From NCBI GenBank assembly GCA_905234205.1, contig CAJOGG010000024.1, forward strand, positions 1,257 to 11,605: a stretch of 10,349 nt of DNA, read 5' to 3'. A program made the translations under genes and the position numbers. The stretch comes from an uncultured Synergistales bacterium. Lineage in GTDB: Bacteria; Synergistota; Synergistia; Synergistales; Aminobacteriaceae. A model generated the notes under the pieces. That model saw only the letters and a program-made list of their open reading frames with translations. It was not told where the DNA came from and ran no database searches. Of this stretch, positions 281-10,095 are shown piece by piece. Within the stretch, counting starts at the first letter, position 1. Every line of letters begins with the position of its first letter.

Positions 281-2554
281 TTGATACAGGAAAACATTCA
301 GAGCATCATACGACAGAGACAGCCTTTAGCACTTCGAGTCATGAAAGCCCGCGAAAGTTTGTCTGCTGCGTTGGAGGGATTCGAGAGATTCAATTTTTTG
401 TGCCGCGAAACTTTTCAGGACAAAGACCTTGCAAAAGAATTTAACGGCGTCGTAAGCATTCTTGAGGAAGCCGACAAAATCGCTGGTGACGCTACAAAAC
501 GTTTGGACGAACTCAAGCACATTCAGAAAAGACTCACTCGTAACACGCTAAACATTGCTGTAATCGGTCGTGCGCGTCAAGGAAAAAGCCGTTTGCTACA
601 AACTATAACGGGATTAACTGCTGATGAGATACCCGACAGTAACGGAGGCTTCTGCACTGGTGTACGTAGCGACATTATCAACGAGGACACAGAAATGACA
701 TACGCCATTGTGAATTTCTTGACGGAAGCGAAATTTATAAGTGAGAACGTTACGCCATACTTTGCAGAGCTGAAAAATTTTTTCTCAATCGTTCCGACTT
801 CGCTATCAGAGTTCAAGAGCTTGTCAATCCCTATGCCAGAAGACTCTCTTGACACATCAATAAATCAACACTTAAAGCACTTGGCAGACCTTCAGCGCAA
901 TATCCCTCAATACGAACACTTATTGGACCAGAGACCACGACGAATCAAAAAAGAAGAGATCAGGCTATACGTTGCTCAAGACGATAAGGAAGGCAATAGA
1001 GGCTATTACAATTATCTTGCTGTTGAAAGCGTTGAGATATTTTGCCGTTTTCCTAATAGTGAAGTAGGCGCTTTAAGATTGATTGATTTACCTGGACTCG
1101 GCGATACAAAACTAGGAGACGTTGGACGAGTTGTGAATGCCCTGAAAGATCAAGTTGACCTAGTGTTATTCTTGACGAAGCCTTCAAATGCCGGAGCAGG
1201 TTGGCAGGATATTGACACGGACCTTTACAGCCAGGCTAGAAGCGCATTAGGCGAGAAACTCCCGATCGAACGTTGGGCCTTCTGGGTATTCAATCACGAC
1301 TCAAGGACGGGGGCTGATAATGAGATTCAGTGTAAATTATTGCGGGACTCTATCAGTGACGCACAAATAAAAGTCGCTCAAACCGTTGTAGTTGACTGCA
1401 CACACTCGCATGACGTATCGAAAAATTTGATTGATGTTGCCTTGGCCCACCTTTCACGCAATATCGAACGCAACGACCGCGAATACGCCGAAAACATTCA
1501 AAGCATGGTCAATTCCACTGTTCAGAATATGCGAGCCTTCGTTGAAAATGTCCGTGCCCTGTTAAAAGACGATGACGACTTTGACAAGGATAGCGATACT
1601 TTTGACGTATTGTTTGAGGATTTATGGGACGCTCTTCGCGGTGAAATGCAAGCTTGCGTCGGAGAGGACTCCAGGCTTAGAGCAAACCGTAAAGAACCGT
1701 ATATGGAACTCATGAAAGAGATTGAGCAAGTTTTAGAGGAAGAACGCACCAATGAATTTCCGTTGACAGAGGAAGAAATCAAACGTGCTTCACGAGGCGA
1801 GGGCGGCGTATTGACTGCTTACCAAAACGCTTTGCACTACCTACGAACGAGATTAAGCGGCAAATTACAAATTAGTCTTGATCGTATCCTTGATGATCTA
1901 CTGAAGAAAATGAAGAGCGAGTTCACAGAGATATTCGCGACAACCGGAAAACTTAATATAAAACGATTCGACAACGTCTCCAACCATGAGCTCTTGGGCA
2001 AAATGATTGATTGCATTCAGGCGTCAGGAAATAGCGAAACCATGCCAACGATTTTGAAGGGCTTGAAATTCTTGGACGAGTGGACAATGAGCTACAGAAG
2101 CTTTATACAACATAGACTGCGCGGAGCCTTGAACGTTCTTGACTACGACGAAAAGGAATGCCAGGACAAAGGCACCCCAAGAAACGCTTCCCAAGCTGTT
2201 GAAATCCTTAGAGGTGAATACGAGGAAACAATCTACAAAGTGAAACAAGCGCTTGATGGAATTTACACAGAACCCAATGAAGCCGCTTTCGCAGTCGCCG
2301 AAGAGTTCAAGGACATAATGATACGCTCAAACGAAATCAGAACCCACTCCGACGATAACGAGAAGCCACACCAGAAATTCAAAAACGATCTCAAAATTCA
2401 ATGGAGACGCTTTTACAGACCTATACGCGGAGACGTTTGGCCAGATGAGTACGGACATAGCCAGCGCAGACGCGACATCAACACAAAACTTCGTGCGCCC
2501 CTTGATAGTTTGTTGTCCATGTTTACAAATTCAAGCTTTGATTTTTTGCGATAA
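281..2554 (+). CDS. Large dynamin-like P-loop GTPase, copy 1 (A1)
   Basis: A 757-residue protein with an N-terminal helical region (about 1-88) and a GTPase domain (about 90-400). The P-loop is GRARQGKS at 96-103, a threonine in FCTG (T126) fits the switch-I/G2 position, and the G3 motif is DLPG at 269-272 followed by LGD. No classical T/NKxD G4 is evident; FNHDS around 337-341 is the nearest candidate. The remaining 350 or so residues look mainly helical and charged, with no membrane segment. A GTPase head followed by a long helical region is the layout of bacterial dynamin-like proteins, which often occur as tandem pairs and remodel membranes. Assignment to that superfamily is from layout and motifs, not from a close match. 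The paralogue at 3201-5463 is colinear, with its P-loop at the same residue once its frame is restored. The next gene begins 3 bases after the stop. Confidence 0.85.
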   Translation: MIQENIQSIIRQRQPLALRVMKARESLSAALEGFERFNFLCRETFQDKDLAKEFNGVVSILEEADKIAGDATKRLDELKHIQKRLTRNTLNIAVIGRARQGKSRLLQTITGLTADEIPDSNGGFCTGVRSDIINEDTEMTYAIVNFLTEAKFISENVTPYFAELKNFFSIVPTSLSEFKSLSIPMPEDSLDTSINQHLKHLADLQRNIPQYEHLLDQRPRRIKKEEIRLYVAQDDKEGNRGYYNYLAVESVEIFCRFPNSEVGALRLIDLPGLGDTKLGDVGRVVNALKDQVDLVLFLTKPSNAGAGWQDIDTDLYSQARSALGEKLPIERWAFWVFNHDSRTGADNEIQCKLLRDSISDAQIKVAQTVVVDCTHSHDVSKNLIDVALAHLSRNIERNDREYAENIQSMVNSTVQNMRAFVENVRALLKDDDDFDKDSDTFDVLFEDLWDALRGEMQACVGEDSRLRANRKEPYMELMKEIEQVLEEERTNEFPLTEEEIKRASRGEGGVLTAYQNALHYLRTRLSGKLQISLDRILDDLLKKMKSEFTEIFATTGKLNIKRFDNVSNHELLGKMIDCIQASGNSETMPTILKGLKFLDEWTMSYRSFIQHRLRGALNVLDYDEKECQDKGTPRNASQAVEILRGEYEETIYKVKQALDGIYTEPNEAAFAVAEEFKDIMIRSNEIRTHSDDNEKPHQKFKNDLKIQWRRFYRPIRGDVWPDEYGHSQRRRDINTKLRAPLDSLLSMFTNSSFDFLR

Positions 2555-2557
2555 GTT

Positions 2558-3121
2558 ATGACCATGAACGACAACATAGAATTTAGATTTGTTACCAGAA
2601 CTCTACGTGAAGATTACCATGTTTACGCGGACAATGGTAACGCTATTTTTAGCGATCAGACAGAGTTTGCACCCTTACGAGCGAAATGTTCAATCAGGCC
2701 GGAAGACGGAGGGTGCGCGGCTCTCTTTGAGGATAACGGGAAAATTTTTCTAATCGTGTCAGGACTCTCAACCGGACGAAAAGATTTTGCGGGGCGTCCA
2801 ATTCGTTTTTCGTTCTGTAGGATCTTTCAGGACTCAAGTCAGAATAACAAGGCTAAATCTTATGCATCATTAATCAAGATCATAACCCAATGGCAACAAG
2901 TAGAGTCGACTCTTCAATCACTGTTTCACGAGAAAGATAACAGCGTCCATTTTGATCAACAAACTTTTATCGACTGGTTACGAGCTCAATCGCTCCCGAC
3001 GTTCAACTTTGAAATTTGTAAGCATGGTGATGTCCGAGGAGCTTGTGATATTATATGGCCATCACTAAATTCCATGCTCAAGTGGCTTTACTCGGAGGCT
3101 GATGAAATTGTCTGTATATGA
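2558..3121 (+). CDS. Short family-B protein (B1), unrecognised domain
   Basis: A 187-residue soluble protein that I cannot assign to a known family. Its whole length aligns with residues 1 to about 185 of the protein at 7528-8697. Shared blocks are FRFxTRT near the N-terminus, ALFEDNGKIF (ALYEEDGLIY in the paralogue), KDFAGRPIRFSF at 75-86 (KDFANRPIVFSF), a tryptophan-containing helix around 110 and LKW close to the end. It stops just where the shared domain ends, so it looks like a complete stand-alone domain rather than a truncation. The ATG at 2558 is 3 bases after the preceding stop and has no clear Shine-Dalgarno, suggesting translational coupling; ATG 2564 is an equally possible start. 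Its place between the two large GTPases suggests an adaptor or regulatory partner (inference). Confidence 0.75.
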   Translation: MTMNDNIEFRFVTRTLREDYHVYADNGNAIFSDQTEFAPLRAKCSIRPEDGGCAALFEDNGKIFLIVSGLSTGRKDFAGRPIRFSFCRIFQDSSQNNKAKSYASLIKIITQWQQVESTLQSLFHEKDNSVHFDQQTFIDWLRAQSLPTFNFEICKHGDVRGACDIIWPSLNSMLKWLYSEADEIVCI

Positions 3122-3187: not shown

Positions 3188-3195
3188 AAGGAGTG
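3188..3195 (+). promoter_or_regulatory. Ribosome binding site for the second large GTPase
   Basis: AAGGAGTG sits about 7 bases before ATG 3201. This supports 3201 rather than the upstream in-frame ATG at 3102, which overlaps the previous gene. Protein alignment also favours 3201: the product begins MKQERINSII, matching MIQENIQSII of the first copy. Confidence 0.75.
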
Positions 3196-3200
3196 ATACA

Positions 3201-3425
3201 ATGAAGCAAGAGCGCATCAATAGTATAATCCAGCAAGGGAAACCTATGGCTGAAAGAATAGCTGCTGTGCGTGAACGTTTTGTTCAGGCAATGGATCAAT
3301 TTGAAAGATTTCGTGCCCTTTGCAGAACAGCATTGCAAGATAAAGAAGTCGCCGCTGACTTTTCTGAACTTGGCCGCGTAATCGAAGCATCTGATCGCAT
3401 AATTGTGGGGGGGGGGCGAGCTTAA
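3201..3425 (+). CDS. N-terminal fragment of large GTPase copy 2 (A2), cut off after a G10 tract
   Basis: As the sequence stands, translation from ATG 3201 gives 74 residues and ends at TAA 3423-3425, directly after ten consecutive Gs. Up to the tract the product follows copy 1 closely, for example FERFRALCRTALQDKE against FERFNFLCRETFQDKD. The last residues (VGGGRA) come from the G run and the shifted frame. The fragment contains only the N-terminal helical region and lacks the P-loop, so on its own it cannot act as a GTPase. The remaining protein continues in the +1 frame (see 3403-5463). Removing one G would join the two parts into 753 residues. Confidence 0.75.
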   Translation: MKQERINSIIQQGKPMAERIAAVRERFVQAMDQFERFRALCRTALQDKEVAADFSELGRVIEASDRIIVGGGRA

Positions 3426-5463
3426 AGACAATTTAGCGCACATTCAAAACCGCCTTTTGCGTAACACTTTGAACATAGCAGTTATAGGACGAGCTAGGCA
3501 AGGAAAAAGTAGACTACTTCAAACTATAACGGGACTCACTTCCGACGAAATCCCCGATGGCAATCAAGCTTTCTGTACAGGAGTTCGCAGCGATATTATT
3601 AACGATCCAGCAACGGAAGAAGCTTATGCGAACGTCAACTTTTTGACCGAAGAAAGATTCATCGATGAGAACATTGCGCCGTATTTTGTAGAGTTGCAGA
3701 AGTATAAACCAGAACTTTTCACGCCTATGTCGATTGTGGAGTTCAAGGACTTTGTTCTACCACAGCCAGGAACTTTCAAAGCAACTCCTGAGGACGTCAC
3801 GCAGATGAATCTTCATTTGCAGCACCTCAAAGACCTTCAGGAACATTTACCACAATACCAAGAATATCTAGGCAAGCCACCGTTAAGAATCTCAAGAGGA
3901 CAAATCCGAGAATACGTAGCGCAGGACAACACTAAAGGTGAACGCGTTTACTTTAAGCACATGGCCGTCGATAGCGTCGAGATTTTCTGCAAGTTCCCTA
4001 ATTCTGATGTGGGAGCATTGAGACTCATAGATTTACCGGGCCTCGGAGATACTCGTATTGGCGACGTTGATAGAGTCGTGAGGGCTTTAAGGGATCAAGT
4101 TGACCTAGTTTTCTTCCTATCGAAACCTTCAAACGCTGGCGCAGGTTGGCAAGATAATGAAGTCTATTTGTACAGTCAAGCAAGGCGAGCACTTGGTGAG
4201 AAATTACCGATTGAGCGTTGGGCTTTTTGGGTGTTCAATCATGATTCACGCACTGGAGCAGATAATAGGACTCAATGTGAGCTTCTGAAAAATTCTATGC
4301 GTGCTGCACAGATTAGTGTAGCTGATACTGTGATTGTAGACTGTACCAACACCGAAGAAGTCTCGGAGAAATTAATCGACAAAGCACTTGAACACCTAGC
4401 AAGCAACATAGAACGCAACGATCGTGAATACGCTGAAAACATACAGGCTTCACTCATAAGCACTATGCAGAAATTCCGTGAAATTCTTTCTGAAGCTCAA
4501 ATGATTTTACGCGACGACAGCAGTTTTGATGATAGAGATAGCGGAGTTTTTGATGGCTTGTTCGATTATGTATGGGACGAAATTTGTGAGGAACTTCAGG
4601 CTTATGTGGAGGAAGACTCGGTATTAAGACGTAACAGGGAAAATCCTTGCTTGCCATTACAGGAACGAATTGAAACTGTACTCGATGAAGAAGATAACAC
4701 CGATGTTGGAGTAGCTGCGGAGGCTATGAAGAAGGCTTCACGAAGGCGCGGAGGTCTAGGATCGGCTTATGAGGATTGCCTGCACCAGCTTAGAACAGGT
4801 TTAAGCCGTAAGATGCAACAGAATCTCGATGACATTTTGGAAAACGTATTATGCGAAACGAAAGATACACTCTGCTATATCTTAGGAGTAACAGGACGAC
4901 TTGAGAAACGTTTTAGAGTTCATGATCACAGGCTTTTCGGTGAACTGCTTAACTTTATTGAGGCTTCAGGATACAAGGACGAGGTTCCGACGTTGATTGA
5001 GGGTTTTTCACTCGTGAATGATTGGACAATGAGTTATCGCAGCTTCATTCAACACCGTATCCGTAGCTCACTGAATGCACTGGATCCACTTGACAGCGAA
5101 TGTCTTGCTATGGGGACTCCGACGAGTGAAGTACAAGCAGCCGAGAATCTCCGAGAACTTTATAAGCAAGCAATCTACACTCTTCGAAAAGAGTTCGACG
5201 AGATTTATTCAGAACCCAACAAAGCGGCGTTTGCTATTGCCGAAGAATTCAAGGATATAATGATTCGTCCACATGATACAAAGGACAATGGGCCAAGACT
5301 GATTAATCAGTGGAGAAAGTTGTATCGTTCGATCAAAGGCGACATTTGGCCGGAAGAGTATGGGACTTCACAGCGTAGGCGTGACGTATGTGCAAAATTG
5401 CGCGTGCCCCTGATGAGTTTAGTTGCCTTGTGTAACTCAACGGATTTCACTTTTTTGAATTAG
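3403..5463 (+). CDS. Body of large dynamin-like GTPase copy 2 (A2), out of frame with its start
   Basis: This carries the GTPase domain and helical C-terminus of the second large GTPase. In numbering of the restored 753-residue protein (nine Gs), the P-loop GRARQGKS falls at 96-103, exactly as in A1. The FCTG threonine, the DLPGLGD G3 motif, the FNHDSRTGADN stretch and the C-terminal TMSYRSFIQHR block are all kept. The frame is open for about 685 codons with no other lesion, so decay is either very recent or the break is reversible or artefactual. The left coordinate is the first possible start in this frame (TTG 3403), which has no convincing Shine-Dalgarno; the intended start is most likely ATG 3201. 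Codon choices differ widely from A1 despite similar protein, so the duplication is old. The next gene follows after 10 bases. Confidence 0.8.
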   Translation: MWGGGELKDNLAHIQNRLLRNTLNIAVIGRARQGKSRLLQTITGLTSDEIPDGNQAFCTGVRSDIINDPATEEAYANVNFLTEERFIDENIAPYFVELQKYKPELFTPMSIVEFKDFVLPQPGTFKATPEDVTQMNLHLQHLKDLQEHLPQYQEYLGKPPLRISRGQIREYVAQDNTKGERVYFKHMAVDSVEIFCKFPNSDVGALRLIDLPGLGDTRIGDVDRVVRALRDQVDLVFFLSKPSNAGAGWQDNEVYLYSQARRALGEKLPIERWAFWVFNHDSRTGADNRTQCELLKNSMRAAQISVADTVIVDCTNTEEVSEKLIDKALEHLASNIERNDREYAENIQASLISTMQKFREILSEAQMILRDDSSFDDRDSGVFDGLFDYVWDEICEELQAYVEEDSVLRRNRENPCLPLQERIETVLDEEDNTDVGVAAEAMKKASRRRGGLGSAYEDCLHQLRTGLSRKMQQNLDDILENVLCETKDTLCYILGVTGRLEKRFRVHDHRLFGELLNFIEASGYKDEVPTLIEGFSLVNDWTMSYRSFIQHRIRSSLNALDPLDSECLAMGTPTSEVQAAENLRELYKQAIYTLRKEFDEIYSEPNKAAFAIAEEFKDIMIRPHDTKDNGPRLINQWRKLYRSIKGDIWPEEYGTSQRRRDVCAKLRVPLMSLVALCNSTDFTFLN
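3407..3416 (+). repeat. Homopolymeric G10 tract, candidate phase-variation switch
   Basis: Ten Gs interrupt the second large GTPase at codons 69-72. Nine Gs would read Val-Gly-Gly-Gly-Glu-Leu and give a spacing between N-terminal helix and P-loop identical to the first copy; ten Gs lead to a stop 7 bases after the tract. The first copy has ordinary mixed sequence at this place. Poly-G runs of this length are classic slipped-strand contingency loci in some bacteria, but they are also prone to sequencing errors. Confidence 0.7.
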
Positions 5464-5473
5464 GTAGCTTACA

Positions 5474-6529
5474 ATGTCAAATAATAAATCACAGCTGCTG
5501 AAAATCTTAGGATCAGAGGGGATAAGCATTATTATAAATGCCGTAAGACGTCTGTTCATAAGTAGAAAGTCAAGCAACGAATTATGGTTCACAGCGTTGG
5601 GGCCGAGCGGTGCGGGTAAAACCACACTGCTTGCCTGTATGCACAAAAGGTTTGAGGAACTGTTGCCCGGTTCATTCTATCCTGCAGATAACAAAACTTT
5701 CAGCACGTTGAACAGCGCTTACAAGAAGCTTAAGATAGAAGCCAATAGTCCTAGCATTGAGTTTGAAGTTGGCGTTGAGGGTACAAGTGATTTGCGCCAA
5801 TATGCCTTTACTATTAAGGGGAAGAGAGCAAATTTGCCGGTGAGATTCTTTGACTTCCCTGGCGGTTGGTTAAATCCTTATGACGAAGCACAAGCTGAAA
5901 ATCATGAACAAGTTATCAATATCGTACAGCGTTCTATGGTCATCATGGTGGCTATAAATACTCCTTACATAATGGAGTTTGATGGACGCTATAAAGATTA
6001 CGCCGGAGTTGATGAGATTGAATACGCAATCAAGTTGAGCCTTCGTAATGACAATAGCGATAAGTTGATTCTCCTAGTGCCGATTAAATGCGAACGTTAT
6101 ACTCGAACTGCTGCGGACAGCAAAATTATGCGCGACAAAATCAAGAAAGTGTTCAGTGGGATTCTAAACTTACCTCAAAATCCTGTGTATCGAGATAGAC
6201 TCGCTATAGCTCTGCTGCCTGTTCATACTGTCGGTAACGCTCACTTCAGCCGCTTCACTTTTAAAGGAGGAAATATAACCCAAGAAGTTTACGTGAAAAA
6301 TCGCACAATGAAATTCAGTCCTAAAGATGCCGACCAGCCGTTACGCTACGCAATGAGTTTCTTGCTGAATGAATTTGCTAAAGGTAGTACAGTCTTGGCC
6401 TCCGTAAAGAATATGTTCATGCAGAACGACATCAACTCGCTCAGGGATTTCGTACGTGCCGGAATGAAGCTTAACAGTGAAAACTTCGAAATAATGTGCG
6501 GCCAAAAACTACTATATAAAACTGTGTAG
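5474..6529 (+). CDS. Small P-loop GTPase-like protein, copy 1 (C1)
   Basis: A 351-residue protein with a Walker A/P-loop GPSGAGKT at 43-50, a Walker B/G3-like FFDFPGG (DFPG at 127-130) and VPIKCERY around 202-209, where IKCE may stand in for the G4 T/NKxD motif. These suggest a TRAFAC-type GTPase, perhaps related to the GTPase families found in bacterial conflict operons, but I cannot place it in a named subfamily. Compared with its paralogue it has about 34 extra N-terminal residues, including a hydrophobic/amphipathic stretch (roughly 8-28) that might touch membrane or a partner. A weak Shine-Dalgarno (AGGTAG, 5462-5467) overlaps the preceding stop codon. Paralogy with the next gene covers nearly the whole protein, including HTVGNAHFSRF and KDADQPLRYAMSFLL. 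Confidence 0.8.
   Translation: MSNNKSQLLKILGSEGISIIINAVRRLFISRKSSNELWFTALGPSGAGKTTLLACMHKRFEELLPGSFYPADNKTFSTLNSAYKKLKIEANSPSIEFEVGVEGTSDLRQYAFTIKGKRANLPVRFFDFPGGWLNPYDEAQAENHEQVINIVQRSMVIMVAINTPYIMEFDGRYKDYAGVDEIEYAIKLSLRNDNSDKLILLVPIKCERYTRTAADSKIMRDKIKKVFSGILNLPQNPVYRDRLAIALLPVHTVGNAHFSRFTFKGGNITQEVYVKNRTMKFSPKDADQPLRYAMSFLLNEFAKGSTVLASVKNMFMQNDINSLRDFVRAGMKLNSENFEIMCGQKLLYKTV
5581..5680 (+). repeat. Imperfect direct repeat, copy 1 (P-loop region of C1)
   Basis: This 100-base stretch matches 6571-6670 without gaps, with 14 differences by hand count (86% identity). It is the P-loop coding region shared by the two small GTPases, and the copies are 990 bases apart in the same orientation. 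Confidence 0.75.
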
Positions 6530-6556: not shown

Positions 6557-7501
6557 ATGGCGGACAAAGAATTATGGTTTACGGCGTTGGGGCCAAGTGG
6601 TGCAGGTAAAACTACATTGCTTGCCTGTATGCACAAGAAGTTTGAGGATATGTTGCCTGGGTCATTCTACCCTTCTGATCCGAGAACTTTCAGCGATCTC
6701 ATAAAAACTTACAAAAAGTTGGAGGGAGAAGCTAATGGTCCTTCGATAGAATTTGGGATCGCCCTAAAGGGAACTGACGAATTACGCCAATATGCATTCA
6801 CGATTAAGGGCAAAAAAAAGAGTGTACCAGTTCGCTTCTTCGATTTTCCAGGAGGCTGGATGAATCCGCATGACGTGAGTCAAGCAGAGAATTACAAGCG
6901 CGTTATTAACATTGTCCAAAAATCTATGGTCATAATTGCTGCTGTGAACACTCCTTATATTATGGAGTTTGACGGGAAGTATAAAGACTATGCTGGAGTT
7001 GATGAGATTGAACACATTATCAAGATGAGCATAACTGACAAGGACAAGTTAATACTGTTTGTGCCGATTAAGTGTGAACGTTATACACGCACTCCACTAG
7101 GCAAAGTCACAATGATTAACAAGATTAAGCAAGTGTTTTCCTGTACGTTAAAGCTAGCATATAATCCAGTGTATCAAGACAAACTTGCTATAGCAATAAT
7201 GCCAATACATACCGTCGGGAACGCGCAATTCAGTCGTTTCGAGTTTGAGGCCGGAAATATCGTGCGTGAAGTTTACTTGAAGAATCGCAGCTTGAAATTC
7301 ACTCCCAAGGACGCCGATCAGCCTTTACGTTATGCTATGAGCTTTTTGTTGTCAGAGTTCAAGAAAAGCAGTGGAGGTTTCTGGAATTCATTCCTCGATT
7401 GGGTTTTCTCGCGCGATAACATGGCCGAAATTAGCAATTTCATTCGTGAAAACATGGTAGACTTCGACATTGTCTGCGGTCGTGAGCTCATAGGGATTTA
7501 A
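6557..7501 (+). CDS. Small P-loop GTPase-like protein, copy 2 (C2)
   Basis: A 314-residue paralogue of the preceding gene. The P-loop GPSGAGKT is at 12-19, DFPG at 96-99 and the G4-like IKCE at 171-174. The nucleotide-binding core starts almost at residue 1, without the N-terminal extension of copy 1. The long conserved middle (NTPYIMEFDG, KDYAGVDEIE) and the HTVGNAQFSRF and KDADQPLRYAMSFLL blocks are kept. The C-terminal 50 residues diverge more, with an aromatic segment (GGFWNSFLDWVF, about 273-284) instead of the sequence in copy 1. That pattern suggests different partners or membrane contacts (inference). It lies 27 bases after copy 1 and 26 before the membrane-anchored B2 gene, in one probable transcript. 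A GTPase fold is likely; the exact family is not certain. Confidence 0.8.
   Translation: MADKELWFTALGPSGAGKTTLLACMHKKFEDMLPGSFYPSDPRTFSDLIKTYKKLEGEANGPSIEFGIALKGTDELRQYAFTIKGKKKSVPVRFFDFPGGWMNPHDVSQAENYKRVINIVQKSMVIIAAVNTPYIMEFDGKYKDYAGVDEIEHIIKMSITDKDKLILFVPIKCERYTRTPLGKVTMINKIKQVFSCTLKLAYNPVYQDKLAIAIMPIHTVGNAQFSRFEFEAGNIVREVYLKNRSLKFTPKDADQPLRYAMSFLLSEFKKSSGGFWNSFLDWVFSRDNMAEISNFIRENMVDFDIVCGRELIGI
6571..6670 (+). repeat. Imperfect direct repeat, copy 2 (P-loop region of C2)
   Basis: Partner of 5581-5680 with 86% identity over 100 bases. Recombination between the two would fuse the C1 N-terminus to the C2 body and delete 990 bases while keeping the frame. Confidence 0.75.
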
Positions 7502-7527: not shown

Positions 7528-8697
7528 ATGAAATTTCGATTTAAGACACGAACTAGATCAGTGAATGGCGATTATAGAGTCTTCGGAGAGGGCGGCAAAA
7601 ATATTTATCCCGAATCTGAATTTAAGCCCATAGCTGATAAAACGGACAGGCAAGACGATCCGTATGTTGCATTGTATGAAGAAGACGGGCTGATATATGT
7701 TGCGGCTTTTGACATGAAGCGAGGCACAAAGGATTTTGCTAATCGTCCTATAGTTTTTTCATTCTATCAGGTGTTCGAGGATTTCGGGAGTGCTTGGGCA
7801 GCTTTTAGCCGTATGATTCTTGAATGGTCAGAGGCCGAGACAAAAATGCGTTCACTCATCAAGGAGACTCCCAAGAAGGAAGGACGAGGTGAGAATATAG
7901 AATTTCAACAAGAAGCTTTTATGGCATGGCTACAGGAAAAACGAGGACGCATTGTGAATTATTCCCTATTGAAAAATGGAGACGTTGTAAAGCTCTCAAG
8001 TATAAAATCCGGTATAGCGTTTAGGCCTAAAAGTTGGTGCACCCTCAAGTGGGACGAGAATGGAGGCGAGATTTACTGCTTTCGATCCAACCGTGAAAAA
8101 TCCTCTGGCAACGTTCTCATTGGGCGTAGCAAAGGTGACATTAAAAACGGTCATAGCAGCAGCAACTATGGCGGAAAAGACTTCACAGTACATAAAGGAA
8201 AAGGCTGGAAACTCGTTGCGGGATTTATCATAGTACTAAGTTTAATAGGTTCAGGCGTTGGAATAAATAAAGTTCTTATGAAAAACGCTGAGGCCAAGGC
8301 AAGAAACACAATTAACGCAAATAATTCGCGTAATGCCGAAGTTAGCAACAAAATTAAACTTATCTCACGTGATATTGCAGAGAACAAGAAATCATTGCTT
8401 GAGGCTTTGGAGGGCGCAAAAGAAAGCATAGGAACTAATGAGTTTGCTACGTTCATAAAAAGAATGGAGAAGTTCAACGATGAAATAATTAAAGCTCAAA
8501 CAAGATTAGAGAACTTGCAATCCCAAAATCACAAGAACAAAAACTCTAACGAACAACTTCTGGCTAGCATCGACAATAACTTCTCTAAAAAACGTGAAAC
8601 AATCGAAGCCGGATTATTAACGACGAGTCGAGATATATATGACACAGAACAATCAGCAGATGAGCTTCAAGACACGGTAAAAGCACTAGGAATGTAA
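7528..8697 (+). CDS. Membrane-anchored family-B protein with coiled coil (B2)
   Basis: A 389-residue protein in three parts. Residues 1 to about 185 are the same unrecognised domain as the protein at 2558-3121, with FRFKTRT, KDFANRPIVFSF (69-80), a tryptophan-containing helix near 100 and a closing LKW (173-175). A Gly/Ser/Lys-rich linker follows (about 190-226). Then comes a hydrophobic segment, 228-246 (LVAGFIIVLSLIG core), that reads as a single transmembrane helix. Residues 251-389 are polar and helical with coiled-coil character, rich in Lys, Glu and Asn. There is no N-terminal signal peptide. Basic residues (KGKGWK) just before the helix favour the N-terminal domain in the cytoplasm and the coiled coil outside, by the positive-inside rule, though basic residues also follow it. 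AAGAAGG precedes ATG 7528. As last gene of the train it could tether the soluble GTPases to the membrane (inference). Confidence 0.8.
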   Translation: MKFRFKTRTRSVNGDYRVFGEGGKNIYPESEFKPIADKTDRQDDPYVALYEEDGLIYVAAFDMKRGTKDFANRPIVFSFYQVFEDFGSAWAAFSRMILEWSEAETKMRSLIKETPKKEGRGENIEFQQEAFMAWLQEKRGRIVNYSLLKNGDVVKLSSIKSGIAFRPKSWCTLKWDENGGEIYCFRSNREKSSGNVLIGRSKGDIKNGHSSSNYGGKDFTVHKGKGWKLVAGFIIVLSLIGSGVGINKVLMKNAEAKARNTINANNSRNAEVSNKIKLISRDIAENKKSLLEALEGAKESIGTNEFATFIKRMEKFNDEIIKAQTRLENLQSQNHKNKNSNEQLLASIDNNFSKKRETIEAGLLTTSRDIYDTEQSADELQDTVKALGM

Positions 8698-8746: not shown

Positions 8747-9238
8747 TTATCCTAGAATTTTTACTATATCTCTAAGTTTATTCACATGCTCTGTAAGCTG
8801 CTTAACTTTTTCTTTCAAGATAGCGTTTTCGATTTTAAGCATTAGATCCTGCGTGAATTCTGTGTTTGCAATATTCTCTTCAGAAGAAATATTATCCTCA
8901 ACTGGTTTTACTTCTTTCTGAGGCAAATTATCATCAACAAATTTTTCGTTAGCTTCTTCATCTGGTGTATCTGATATATCTGATGTGCTCGGAATAAAAT
9001 CAGAATCTGTTTGCGAGTCCATAGCGTTAAGCCATTTCATAATGATCTTCTTGTTCATTCCAAACTCTATAGCAGTTCGAAGTACGCCAATCTCTTTCAC
9101 TCTTGATAAAATCGTGCGTTTTTCTTCCGGCGTAAAATATTGCTTATGATTATATCTAAAGGGTACACTTAACGGTCTAGGAGAAGTTATTTCTCTGGCT
9201 CTTTGAGCGTTATCGTCTCTAAAATATTTTGTGTTCAT
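8747..9238 (-). CDS. HTH/coiled-coil protein, possible DNA-binding regulator
   Basis: A 163-residue protein in three parts. A helix-turn-helix of the transposase-OrfA/homeodomain-like type lies at about 34-72 (YFTPEEKRTILSRVKEIG, then IEFGMNKKIIMKWL). A long acidic, low-complexity linker spans about 73-130. A C-terminal leucine-zipper-like helix is at 133-162 (IENAILKEKVKQL). The zipper and HTH are clearly related to those of the larger upstream neighbour, so the two are paralogues. The layout resembles IS3-type OrfA, but no OrfB, terminal inverted repeats or target duplication are seen, so a domesticated regulator or nucleoid-type DNA binder is more likely than an active transposase subunit. 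AGGTGAG lies about 6 bases before the start. Whether it controls the facing GTPase train is not shown. Confidence 0.7.
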   Translation of the reverse strand: MNTKYFRDDNAQRAREITSPRPLSVPFRYNHKQYFTPEEKRTILSRVKEIGVLRTAIEFGMNKKIIMKWLNAMDSQTDSDFIPSTSDISDTPDEEANEKFVDDNLPQKEVKPVEDNISSEENIANTEFTQDLMLKIENAILKEKVKQLTEHVNKLRDIVKILG

Positions 9239-9324: not shown

Positions 9325-10095
9325 CTAGTGTGATTGAGTGGGATCGCTCATCAAAGCTGTAATAGCTGCCTTAAGCCGTTCAAGTTGCCCAGTGAGATAT
9401 TGAACTTTTTCTTTCAAGATTATGTTCTCAATTTCGAGAGCTGATACCTGTTTTTTACTCGGCGCTGGAACTGAAGGAATGTTCTGTTCTACCTTAACCA
9501 CCTGAGGCTTTTTAACGGGTTCAATTGGTATTGGTTTAAGTTTAGGTGCAGGCGCAGGTATGGGCGTAGACTGTTTTACTTCTGTGCGTTGAGCCACATC
9601 AGAGTCCGCCGCAACCGGCATTGGCTTCATCTTACCAAACTTGAATGTCCAGTTGTATACCATTGAGAGAGAAATACCGGCTTCTCTTGCAGCTTGTGCC
9701 GCACCTACTTCCCTGGATCTTTCTATAACAGCTAATCGTTCAGCTAACGAGAATTCTTTCGCGCGTTTTAACCTAACCGGCTTTTCTGGTTTCAGGCGGC
9801 CTGCTGTTAATGGTATCGGAGTTGAAGTAGTCTGCTCTTTTTCTTCCATAGCAGATTTTATAATTGCTCTGCGTCTCAAGGACACGACCAACGAAGTGGA
9901 AATACCATATTCTTGTGCAGCTCTAGCAATTCCAACTTCTTTTATTCTTGTGACAATTTTTTCGACTTCTTCAGGCGTAAAATCTTTAACTTTTCTATTT
10001 TTAGGCTTAACGTTGCCGGCCGCCTCATCGTTCATAAGTTCAGCACTTGTTTCGTTTTGTGAGTCTTTTATTTGTTCGTCTGTCATTTCTGGCAT
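9325..10095 (-). CDS. Double-HTH/coiled-coil protein, possible DNA-binding regulator
   Basis: A 256-residue protein with two tandem helix-turn-helix units: about 38-80 (DFTPEEVEKIVTRIKEVG, then QEYGISTSLVVSL) and about 114-152 (EFSLAERLAVIERSREVG, then REAGISLSMVYNW). A Pro/Lys-rich linker (about 176-212) and a C-terminal zipper-like helix (217-249, IENIILKEKVQYL) follow. The units are repeats of each other and of the single HTH in the downstream gene, so internal duplication within a small family is evident. The first 35 residues are acidic and probably disordered. The start at ATG 10095 is supported by a strong GGAGG. The gene is 86 bases upstream of its paralogue and may be co-transcribed with it. 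DNA binding is likely; the target is unknown, and IS-derived origin is possible. Confidence 0.75.
   Translation of the reverse strand: MPEMTDEQIKDSQNETSAELMNDEAAGNVKPKNRKVKDFTPEEVEKIVTRIKEVGIARAAQEYGISTSLVVSLRRRAIIKSAMEEKEQTTSTPIPLTAGRLKPEKPVRLKRAKEFSLAERLAVIERSREVGAAQAAREAGISLSMVYNWTFKFGKMKPMPVAADSDVAQRTEVKQSTPIPAPAPKLKPIPIEPVKKPQVVKVEQNIPSVPAPSKKQVSALEIENIILKEKVQYLTGQLERLKAAITALMSDPTQSH

Follow-up and report, generated by a model that had tools for sequence, protein, structure and literature searches.

Does a run of ten Gs that divides the gene of a dynamin-like GTPase mark an accidental break, or is it a device by which the gene is switched on and off? The locus that raises this question lies in a window (the whole stretch of DNA analysed here, 10,349 nucleotides) that comprises bases 1257–11605 of contig C24 of genome G000, a 2.30 Mb draft in 311 contigs. 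The source genome belongs to an uncultured gut bacterium, a Fretibacterium-like member of Synergistaceae, a genus name that we infer; a protein search yielded six relatives, all of them MAG contigs of Synergistaceae, Synergistales or Fretibacterium and several from goat, deer, reindeer or rumen. From position 281 to position 8697, six genes (A1, B, A2, D1, D2 and C, called with a simple script) follow one another in one direction:

281..2554, + strand: A1, intact dynamin-like GTPase, paralogue of A2, 757 aa; Pfam MMR_HSR1 over the cut-off, Dynamin_N under it
2558..3121, + strand: B, 187 aa, without a family match
3201..3425, + strand: 5' part of A2, 74 codons as assembled, ending just past the tract; same C-terminal end in P0121
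3407..3416, + strand: G10 tract, proposed slipped-strand switch; Gly-Gly-Gly (residues 70–72) at this place in P0001
3403..5463, + strand: 3' part of A2, 686-codon open frame with the GTPase domain and a helical part, in a frame different from that of the 5' part
5474..6529, + strand: D1, DO-GTPase2-like, 351 aa; Pfam PF19993, 31.7 bits, over the cut-off of 27
6557..7501, + strand: D2, DO-GTPase2-like, 314 aa; Pfam PF19993, 20.1 bits, under the cut-off of 27
7528..8697, + strand: C, 389 aa, without a family match; by eye, a hydrophobic stretch that looks like a membrane segment, and a C-terminus resembling a coiled coil

Since the gaps between A2 and D1, D1 and D2, and D2 and C are just 10–27 bases long, the array from A1 to C is probably an operon. 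By eye only, without computation, B looks like the first part of C. On the minus strand, positions 8747–9238 and 9325–10095 encode two small proteins, both weakly similar to the IS66 accessory protein TnpA, and the latter has a match to a transposase-type helix-turn-helix; no transposase was found with Pfam in the 10 window translations scanned.

A tract of ten Gs divides the second dynamin-like gene

The original prediction, made from the DNA letters and their open reading frames, was that ten Gs at 3407–3416 cut A2 after codon 74, and this is what we found. The upstream frame starts with the ATG at 3201, which is preceded by AAGGAG at 3188–3193, and runs for 74 codons to a stop that ends at 3425, giving a product with the C-terminal end ...IIVGGGRA. 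The downstream frame, in which about 685 intact codons had been claimed, extends over 686 codons from the TTG at 3403 to 5463 with no further stop, and differs in phase from the upstream one. The tract itself, located 69 codons into A2, is the sole G/C run of at least 8 within the window and, with ten Gs, exceeds the 7–8 that suffice for slippage. It provides three overlapping G8 matches, a number that 1 of 200 dinucleotide shuffles attained, the average over the shuffles being 0.03.

The expected relationship with the paralogue also held. P0001, an intact homologue of 753 aa, has its P-loop (GRARQGKS) starting at residue 96, and the P-loop of the paralogue encoded at 281–2554 starts at this residue too. 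Ahead of the P-loop, A1 lacks any G/C run of at least 6. A1 and A2 are 58.7% identical over 664 codons. The comparison of the 3' part of A2 with its relative from genome G016 gave a pN/pS of 0.20 over 435 codons, with synonymous sites saturated. The intact A2 protein is dynamin-like: it is a GTPase with a P-loop, a dynamin-type fold, N-terminal helices and a helical stalk.

Intact and truncated forms of A2 on record

The search with the 686-codon part identified P0001 as 99% identical over the whole query. This protein is intact and reads through the tract as IIVGGGELKD, with its Gly-Gly-Gly (residues 70–72) falling in the helix that immediately precedes the GTPase domain. It differs from the window at several residues and therefore comes from another strain and not from a sister cell. 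The sole match to the 74-residue start was P0121, a protein of 105 aa that ends in ...IIVGGGRA exactly as in the window. P0121 comprises 2 member sequences and 3 contigs, the longest of 26,273 bases as compared with 11,605 for the contig of the window; it may include the window's own record, so that at least one of the 3 contigs would be that of the window. Thus, the intact state (P0001) and the truncated state (P0121) are both recorded in nature, as protein predictions from different strains.

Could the truncated state be an artefact, the true tract being in frame and A2 intact? We regard an assembly or sequencing error of this kind as unlikely. It would fit a draft of 311 contigs, the error-prone nature of homopolymers, the existence of the intact allele P0001, and the presence of G tracts at the ends of some contigs in the genus. 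However, the truncated product P0121 occurs on 3 contigs, one of them longer than that of the window, and a misread length would still leave in place the tract that is proposed to act as the switch.

Of the 104 homologues listed with their N-terminus, P0001 alone shows Gly-Gly-Gly within 45 residues ahead of the P-loop; the tract in A2 is therefore young, a point that we count against a contingency locus. That the other homologues listed lack tract-encoded glycines, and that an intact paralogue, A1, lies next door, would also suit an ordinary recent pseudogene, in which a single slip has hit a duplicate that decays since A1 suffices. This account is nevertheless very improbable: the 686 codons contain no second disabling change, an intact allele exists elsewhere (P0001), and the tract is one of a genome-wide class, as described below.

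Among the GTPase loci examined, a run of at least 6 in or just before the N-terminal region was found only in G008 and G022, with the reservation that L035/L051 were covered by 115 upstream bases only and that L037 has an N gap there. In G008, another species, the homologue (L053/L036) has an ATG-initiated start followed at once by a G8, and the frame of this start is not that of the GTPase; a real start further down is possible. In G022, a G12 (L117:8549-8560) separates a flagellin gene (named by eye) from a divergent dynamin/DO-GTPase operon; as it may serve the flagellin only, it was not counted as an independent GTPase switch. The frameshift in the GTPase homologue of L056 has no tract and represents an ordinary break or an error.

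Long G tracts are in excess in the genome and in the genus

One of the checks proposed with the original prediction was to look for similar tracts elsewhere in the genome, and these proved to be numerous. G000 contains 24 G/C tracts of at least 8 (5 G8, 14 G9 and 5 G10) and 5 exact G7 runs. Runs of 5 and 6 numbered 49 and 6 in 155,766 bases of G000, a background that is approximate, as the stretches had been chosen for holding tracts. Extrapolation from these runs gives about 11 G7, 1.3 G8 and 0.19 tracts of at least 9 expected genome-wide, as compared with 19 of the last class seen. An isolated mutation or error in A2 would leave the other 23 tracts unexplained. As the source of the tracts we rejected a mobile element or a family of repeats: those of G000 had no clear common sequence upstream or more than about 8 bases downstream.

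The excess is shared by the genus. In 61 genomes we set windows of nine Gs against exact G7 runs. The former were the more numerous in 31 of the 37 genomes that belong to the genus, among them G000, and in 2 of the 24 from other families in the order (Mann–Whitney p=1.8e-10); as windows of nine count long tracts repeatedly, the ratio is no count of sites, but its direction is clear. The six exceptions in the genus were G004, G011, G013, G020, G044 and G048. The two genomes outside it, G027 and G056, both of family f4, had 16 windows against 15 exact G7 runs, and 12 against 5, respectively; this family may represent a second origin of poly-G enrichment within the order. Because the excess is confined largely to one genus, a metagenome-assembly platform artefact is unlikely, and an error in the tract of A2 would not account for a single genus being rich in such tracts when 22 of 24 other-family genomes are not.

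Loss of mismatch repair was rejected for the genus as the cause of the tracts. MutS1 was over the cut-off in 52 of 61 genomes, among them 34 of the 37 of the genus with G000 included, and MutL in 51 of 61 and in 33 of 37, respectively; at E 0.001, MutS matches, including partial MutS2-like ones, were present in 60 of 61 genomes and MutL matches in 56 of 61. In the draft G000 itself MutL was not found, a gap that is uninformative, as only 300 bases separate the start of the mutS match from a contig end. In having MutS and MutL the genus differs, so far as is known, from Campylobacter and Helicobacter, and we count the presence of MutS1 and MutL in most of its genomes against a contingency locus.

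Positions of the tracts and the genes they touch

To describe where tracts lie, we scored those of at least 9 as near a start when they fell within −300 to +150 of a called start, excluding G8 runs, runs at most 300 bases from a locus end, and genes of fewer than 100 codons. This was so for 13 of 18 tracts in G000 and, among the tracts listed from 108 windows, for 15 of 22 in G010, a second species of the genus, as compared with 21/52 and 44/127 G5–6 runs. Pooled, 28 of 40 listed tracts were near a start versus 65 of 179 G5–6 runs (Fisher one-sided p=1e-4), part of this difference being due to the gene caller, which lets a further gene start wherever a tract puts a gene out of frame, as in A2. 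Without the runs at which the caller had set the start, the counts were 24/36 listed tracts and 52/166 G5–6 runs (p=1e-4). When the four dropped tracts were scored as not near, they were 24/40 listed and 65/179 (p=0.005), so that the direction stands.

Called genes of at least 100 codons contained 16 of the 40 listed tracts of at least 9, and in 13 of these 16 the coding strand carried the G. The remaining 24 were outside such genes, which speaks against programmed slippage, in which RNA polymerase or the ribosome would slip on G10 and produce both the stub and the full-length protein from the out-of-frame allele. Homopolymer runs are slippage sites, and the downstream frame of A2 overlaps the tract directly, as such slippage would have it. 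Programmed frameshifts are usually conserved, though, and the other homologues listed lack the tract-encoded glycines; we hold this reading to be the least probable of those considered here.

Pfam matches were obtained for 16 of 20 tract-associated proteins scanned in G000 (29 listed). One set comprises leucine-rich-repeat proteins (three), a flagellin, a pilin-like protein, an Ig-domain surface protein, a glycosyltransferase and an acyltransferase, the tract being inside the gene in the last two. Transporters are represented by an amino-acid permease and an AI-2E-type transporter; further matches were CbiC, a ParA-type ATPase, an M50 protease, an AMP-binding/condensation enzyme, a zinc-ribbon protein and DUF6492. 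In G010, 4 of 10 proteins scanned (33 listed) matched a permease, IF-2B, DeoC and DUF4910. That some of these genes are metabolic (CbiC, IF-2B, DeoC) counts against a contingency locus.

The frame states of 13 tracts, judged by eye, were mixed: five were in frame (L022, L023, L101, L106, L111), three out of frame (L024, L029, L030), two at a C-terminus (L014, L096) and three ambiguous (L012, L017, L093). The three related leucine-rich-repeat proteins of G000 have G8–G10 in or after a signal-peptide-like start, in frame in L023 and out of frame in L024 and L030; for the protein of L030, none of the best 120 of 7,899 matches was near-identical, the highest identity among these 120 being 59%. The permeases of L014:3969-5414 (G000) and L096:1584-3050 (G010) are 71% identical, and their tracts are 12–15 codons from the C-terminus (G9 at codon 469 of 481 and G12 at codon 473 of 488, respectively). 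A change in tract length would alter only the tail of these proteins, which looks like C-terminal tail switching. Additionally, flagellin genes of two species have a tract upstream, at 78 bases in G000 (G9, L020) and at 57 bases in G022, where the gene was named by eye.

The sequence that follows the tracts in G000

Tracts of at least 9 in G000 were followed by T-N-C-G in 11 of 19 cases, as compared with 1 of 55 G5–6 runs and 5 of 345 G4 runs, and with 0 of 23 tracts among those listed for G010. The consensus of this species-specific flank is T-[GT]-C-G-A-C-T-T (L013, L020, L023, L025, L029, L031). GGGGGGGTGCGA has six copies in G000, none in the other 36 genomes of the genus, and one each in 3 of the 24 other-family genomes. 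The tract of A2 is followed by CGAGCTT (3417–3423), a partial match to this flank. The flank profile of other species comes from 24 tracts, with few loci per species.

A proposed slipped-strand switch of A2 and its possible consequences

Taken together, these results make it likely that the G10 tract is a poly-G contingency locus that changes by slipped-strand mispairing, a reading that the original prediction had offered beside a recent mutation or a homopolymer sequencing error. We favour this explanation because of the excess of tracts in the genome and in the genus, with a peak at 9–10, the intact allele elsewhere, and the mixed-frame tracts at the 5' ends of genes typical of phase variation. 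In most classical switches the tract is nearer the gene start, and its position 69 codons into A2 is counted against this explanation.

According to the proposed mechanism, slipped-strand mispairing during replication would alter the length of the G tract. In the ON state the cell would produce the full-length second dynamin-like GTPase, and in the OFF state, which is the assembled one, a 74-residue helical stub without the GTPase domain. Reversible length change at a high rate in living cells, and the state of the tract in the sample, are what we infer here. As A2 toggles while A1 stays on, the operon would yield A1 alone or A1 and A2, beside D1 and D2. In the OFF state, about 2 kb of untranslated message could also cut the expression of D1, D2 and C by polarity. 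By analogy with the dynamin-like pair of Campylobacter jejuni (PMC6104087), A1 and A2 may form mixed complexes, so that ON would correspond to hetero-complexes and OFF to homo-complexes. The likely use of such a switch would be to keep a costly membrane-protective or anti-phage function in part of the population, a guess guided by known bacterial dynamins. Weak PADLOC matches (ZorA, LeoBC, mad3, mad8 and AriA; E 1e-4 to 8e-3) were not accepted as evidence of a defence system.

A wider proposal can be put forward only tentatively, and we would sooner doubt it than rely on it. It is that the Fretibacterium-like genus has a large poly-G phasome that is Campylobacter-like in tract shape and whose targets are not confined to the cell surface but include a dynamin/DO-GTPase operon. 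The switch would exchange a one-dynamin for a two-dynamin form of a randomly varied membrane-defence system, and the 3' flank would hint at a sequence-specific process that makes or keeps the tracts.

Most of what is known of poly-G phase variation comes from cultured pathogens such as Campylobacter, Helicobacter and Neisseria. Here, poly-G tracts are seen genus-wide in mostly uncultured Synergistaceae. In the open-access literature searched we found no report of phase variation in Fretibacterium and, by title, none of such switching by homopolymeric tracts in Synergistetes or of a phase-variable dynamin. Some broken-looking genes in these genomes may be switched-off alleles. A phase-variable A2 would suggest that bacterial dynamins are costly and serve just a part of the population, in keeping with the protection at population level that is reported for DynA (PMC8844932).

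Comparison with known systems

The operon shares features with several systems. As in DO-GTPase conflict systems (PMC7159879), it combines two DO-GTPase-like genes, D1 over and D2 under the Pfam cut-off of 27, with a probably membrane-bound component. Unlike those systems, it has a dynamin pair in place of GAP1, GASH and FNIII, none of which was found with Pfam (to E 0.01) in the 10 window translations, a remote form of GAP1 being possible. A1 and A2 belong to the same bacterial dynamin-like family as DynA of Bacillus subtilis (PMC8844932), with which they may share a protective role at the population level; the protection provided by DynA is against phage, a role for which the A1/A2 operon offers no evidence. 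DLP1 and DLP2 of C. jejuni (PMC6104087) are also a pair of dynamin-like genes, and the intact A2 protein has structural matches to 5owv and 5oxf. In contrast to that pair, A1 and A2 are paralogues with the identity given above, gene B lies between them, and DO-GTPase-like genes follow.

The tracts, in turn, resemble those of Helicobacter canadensis (PMC2823697) in being placed in promoters and at the 5' and 3' coding ends, and the permease pair of L014 and L096 recalls its switching of C-terminal tails. In H. canadensis length variation was seen in reads at all 29 tracts (PMC2823697), whereas the tracts described here are known from assembled sequence. The genus belongs to a phylum different from that of the Campylobacter phasome, has MutS and MutL in most of its genomes, and directs the proposed switch at a dynamin-like GTPase without a predicted surface role. 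The share of tracts within genes also differs: 16 of the 40 listed here lie in called genes of at least 100 codons, as compared with 77% in ORFs of Campylobacter (PMC6321876). Nevertheless, as in Campylobacter, in which lengths of 9 and 10 account for 53% and 26% of poly-G/C tracts, the lengths in G000 peak at 9 and 10 (14 and 5 of 24), the G is mostly on the coding strand (13 of 16 listed in-gene tracts here, all but 5% there), and in-frame and out-of-frame states are mixed (PMC6321876).
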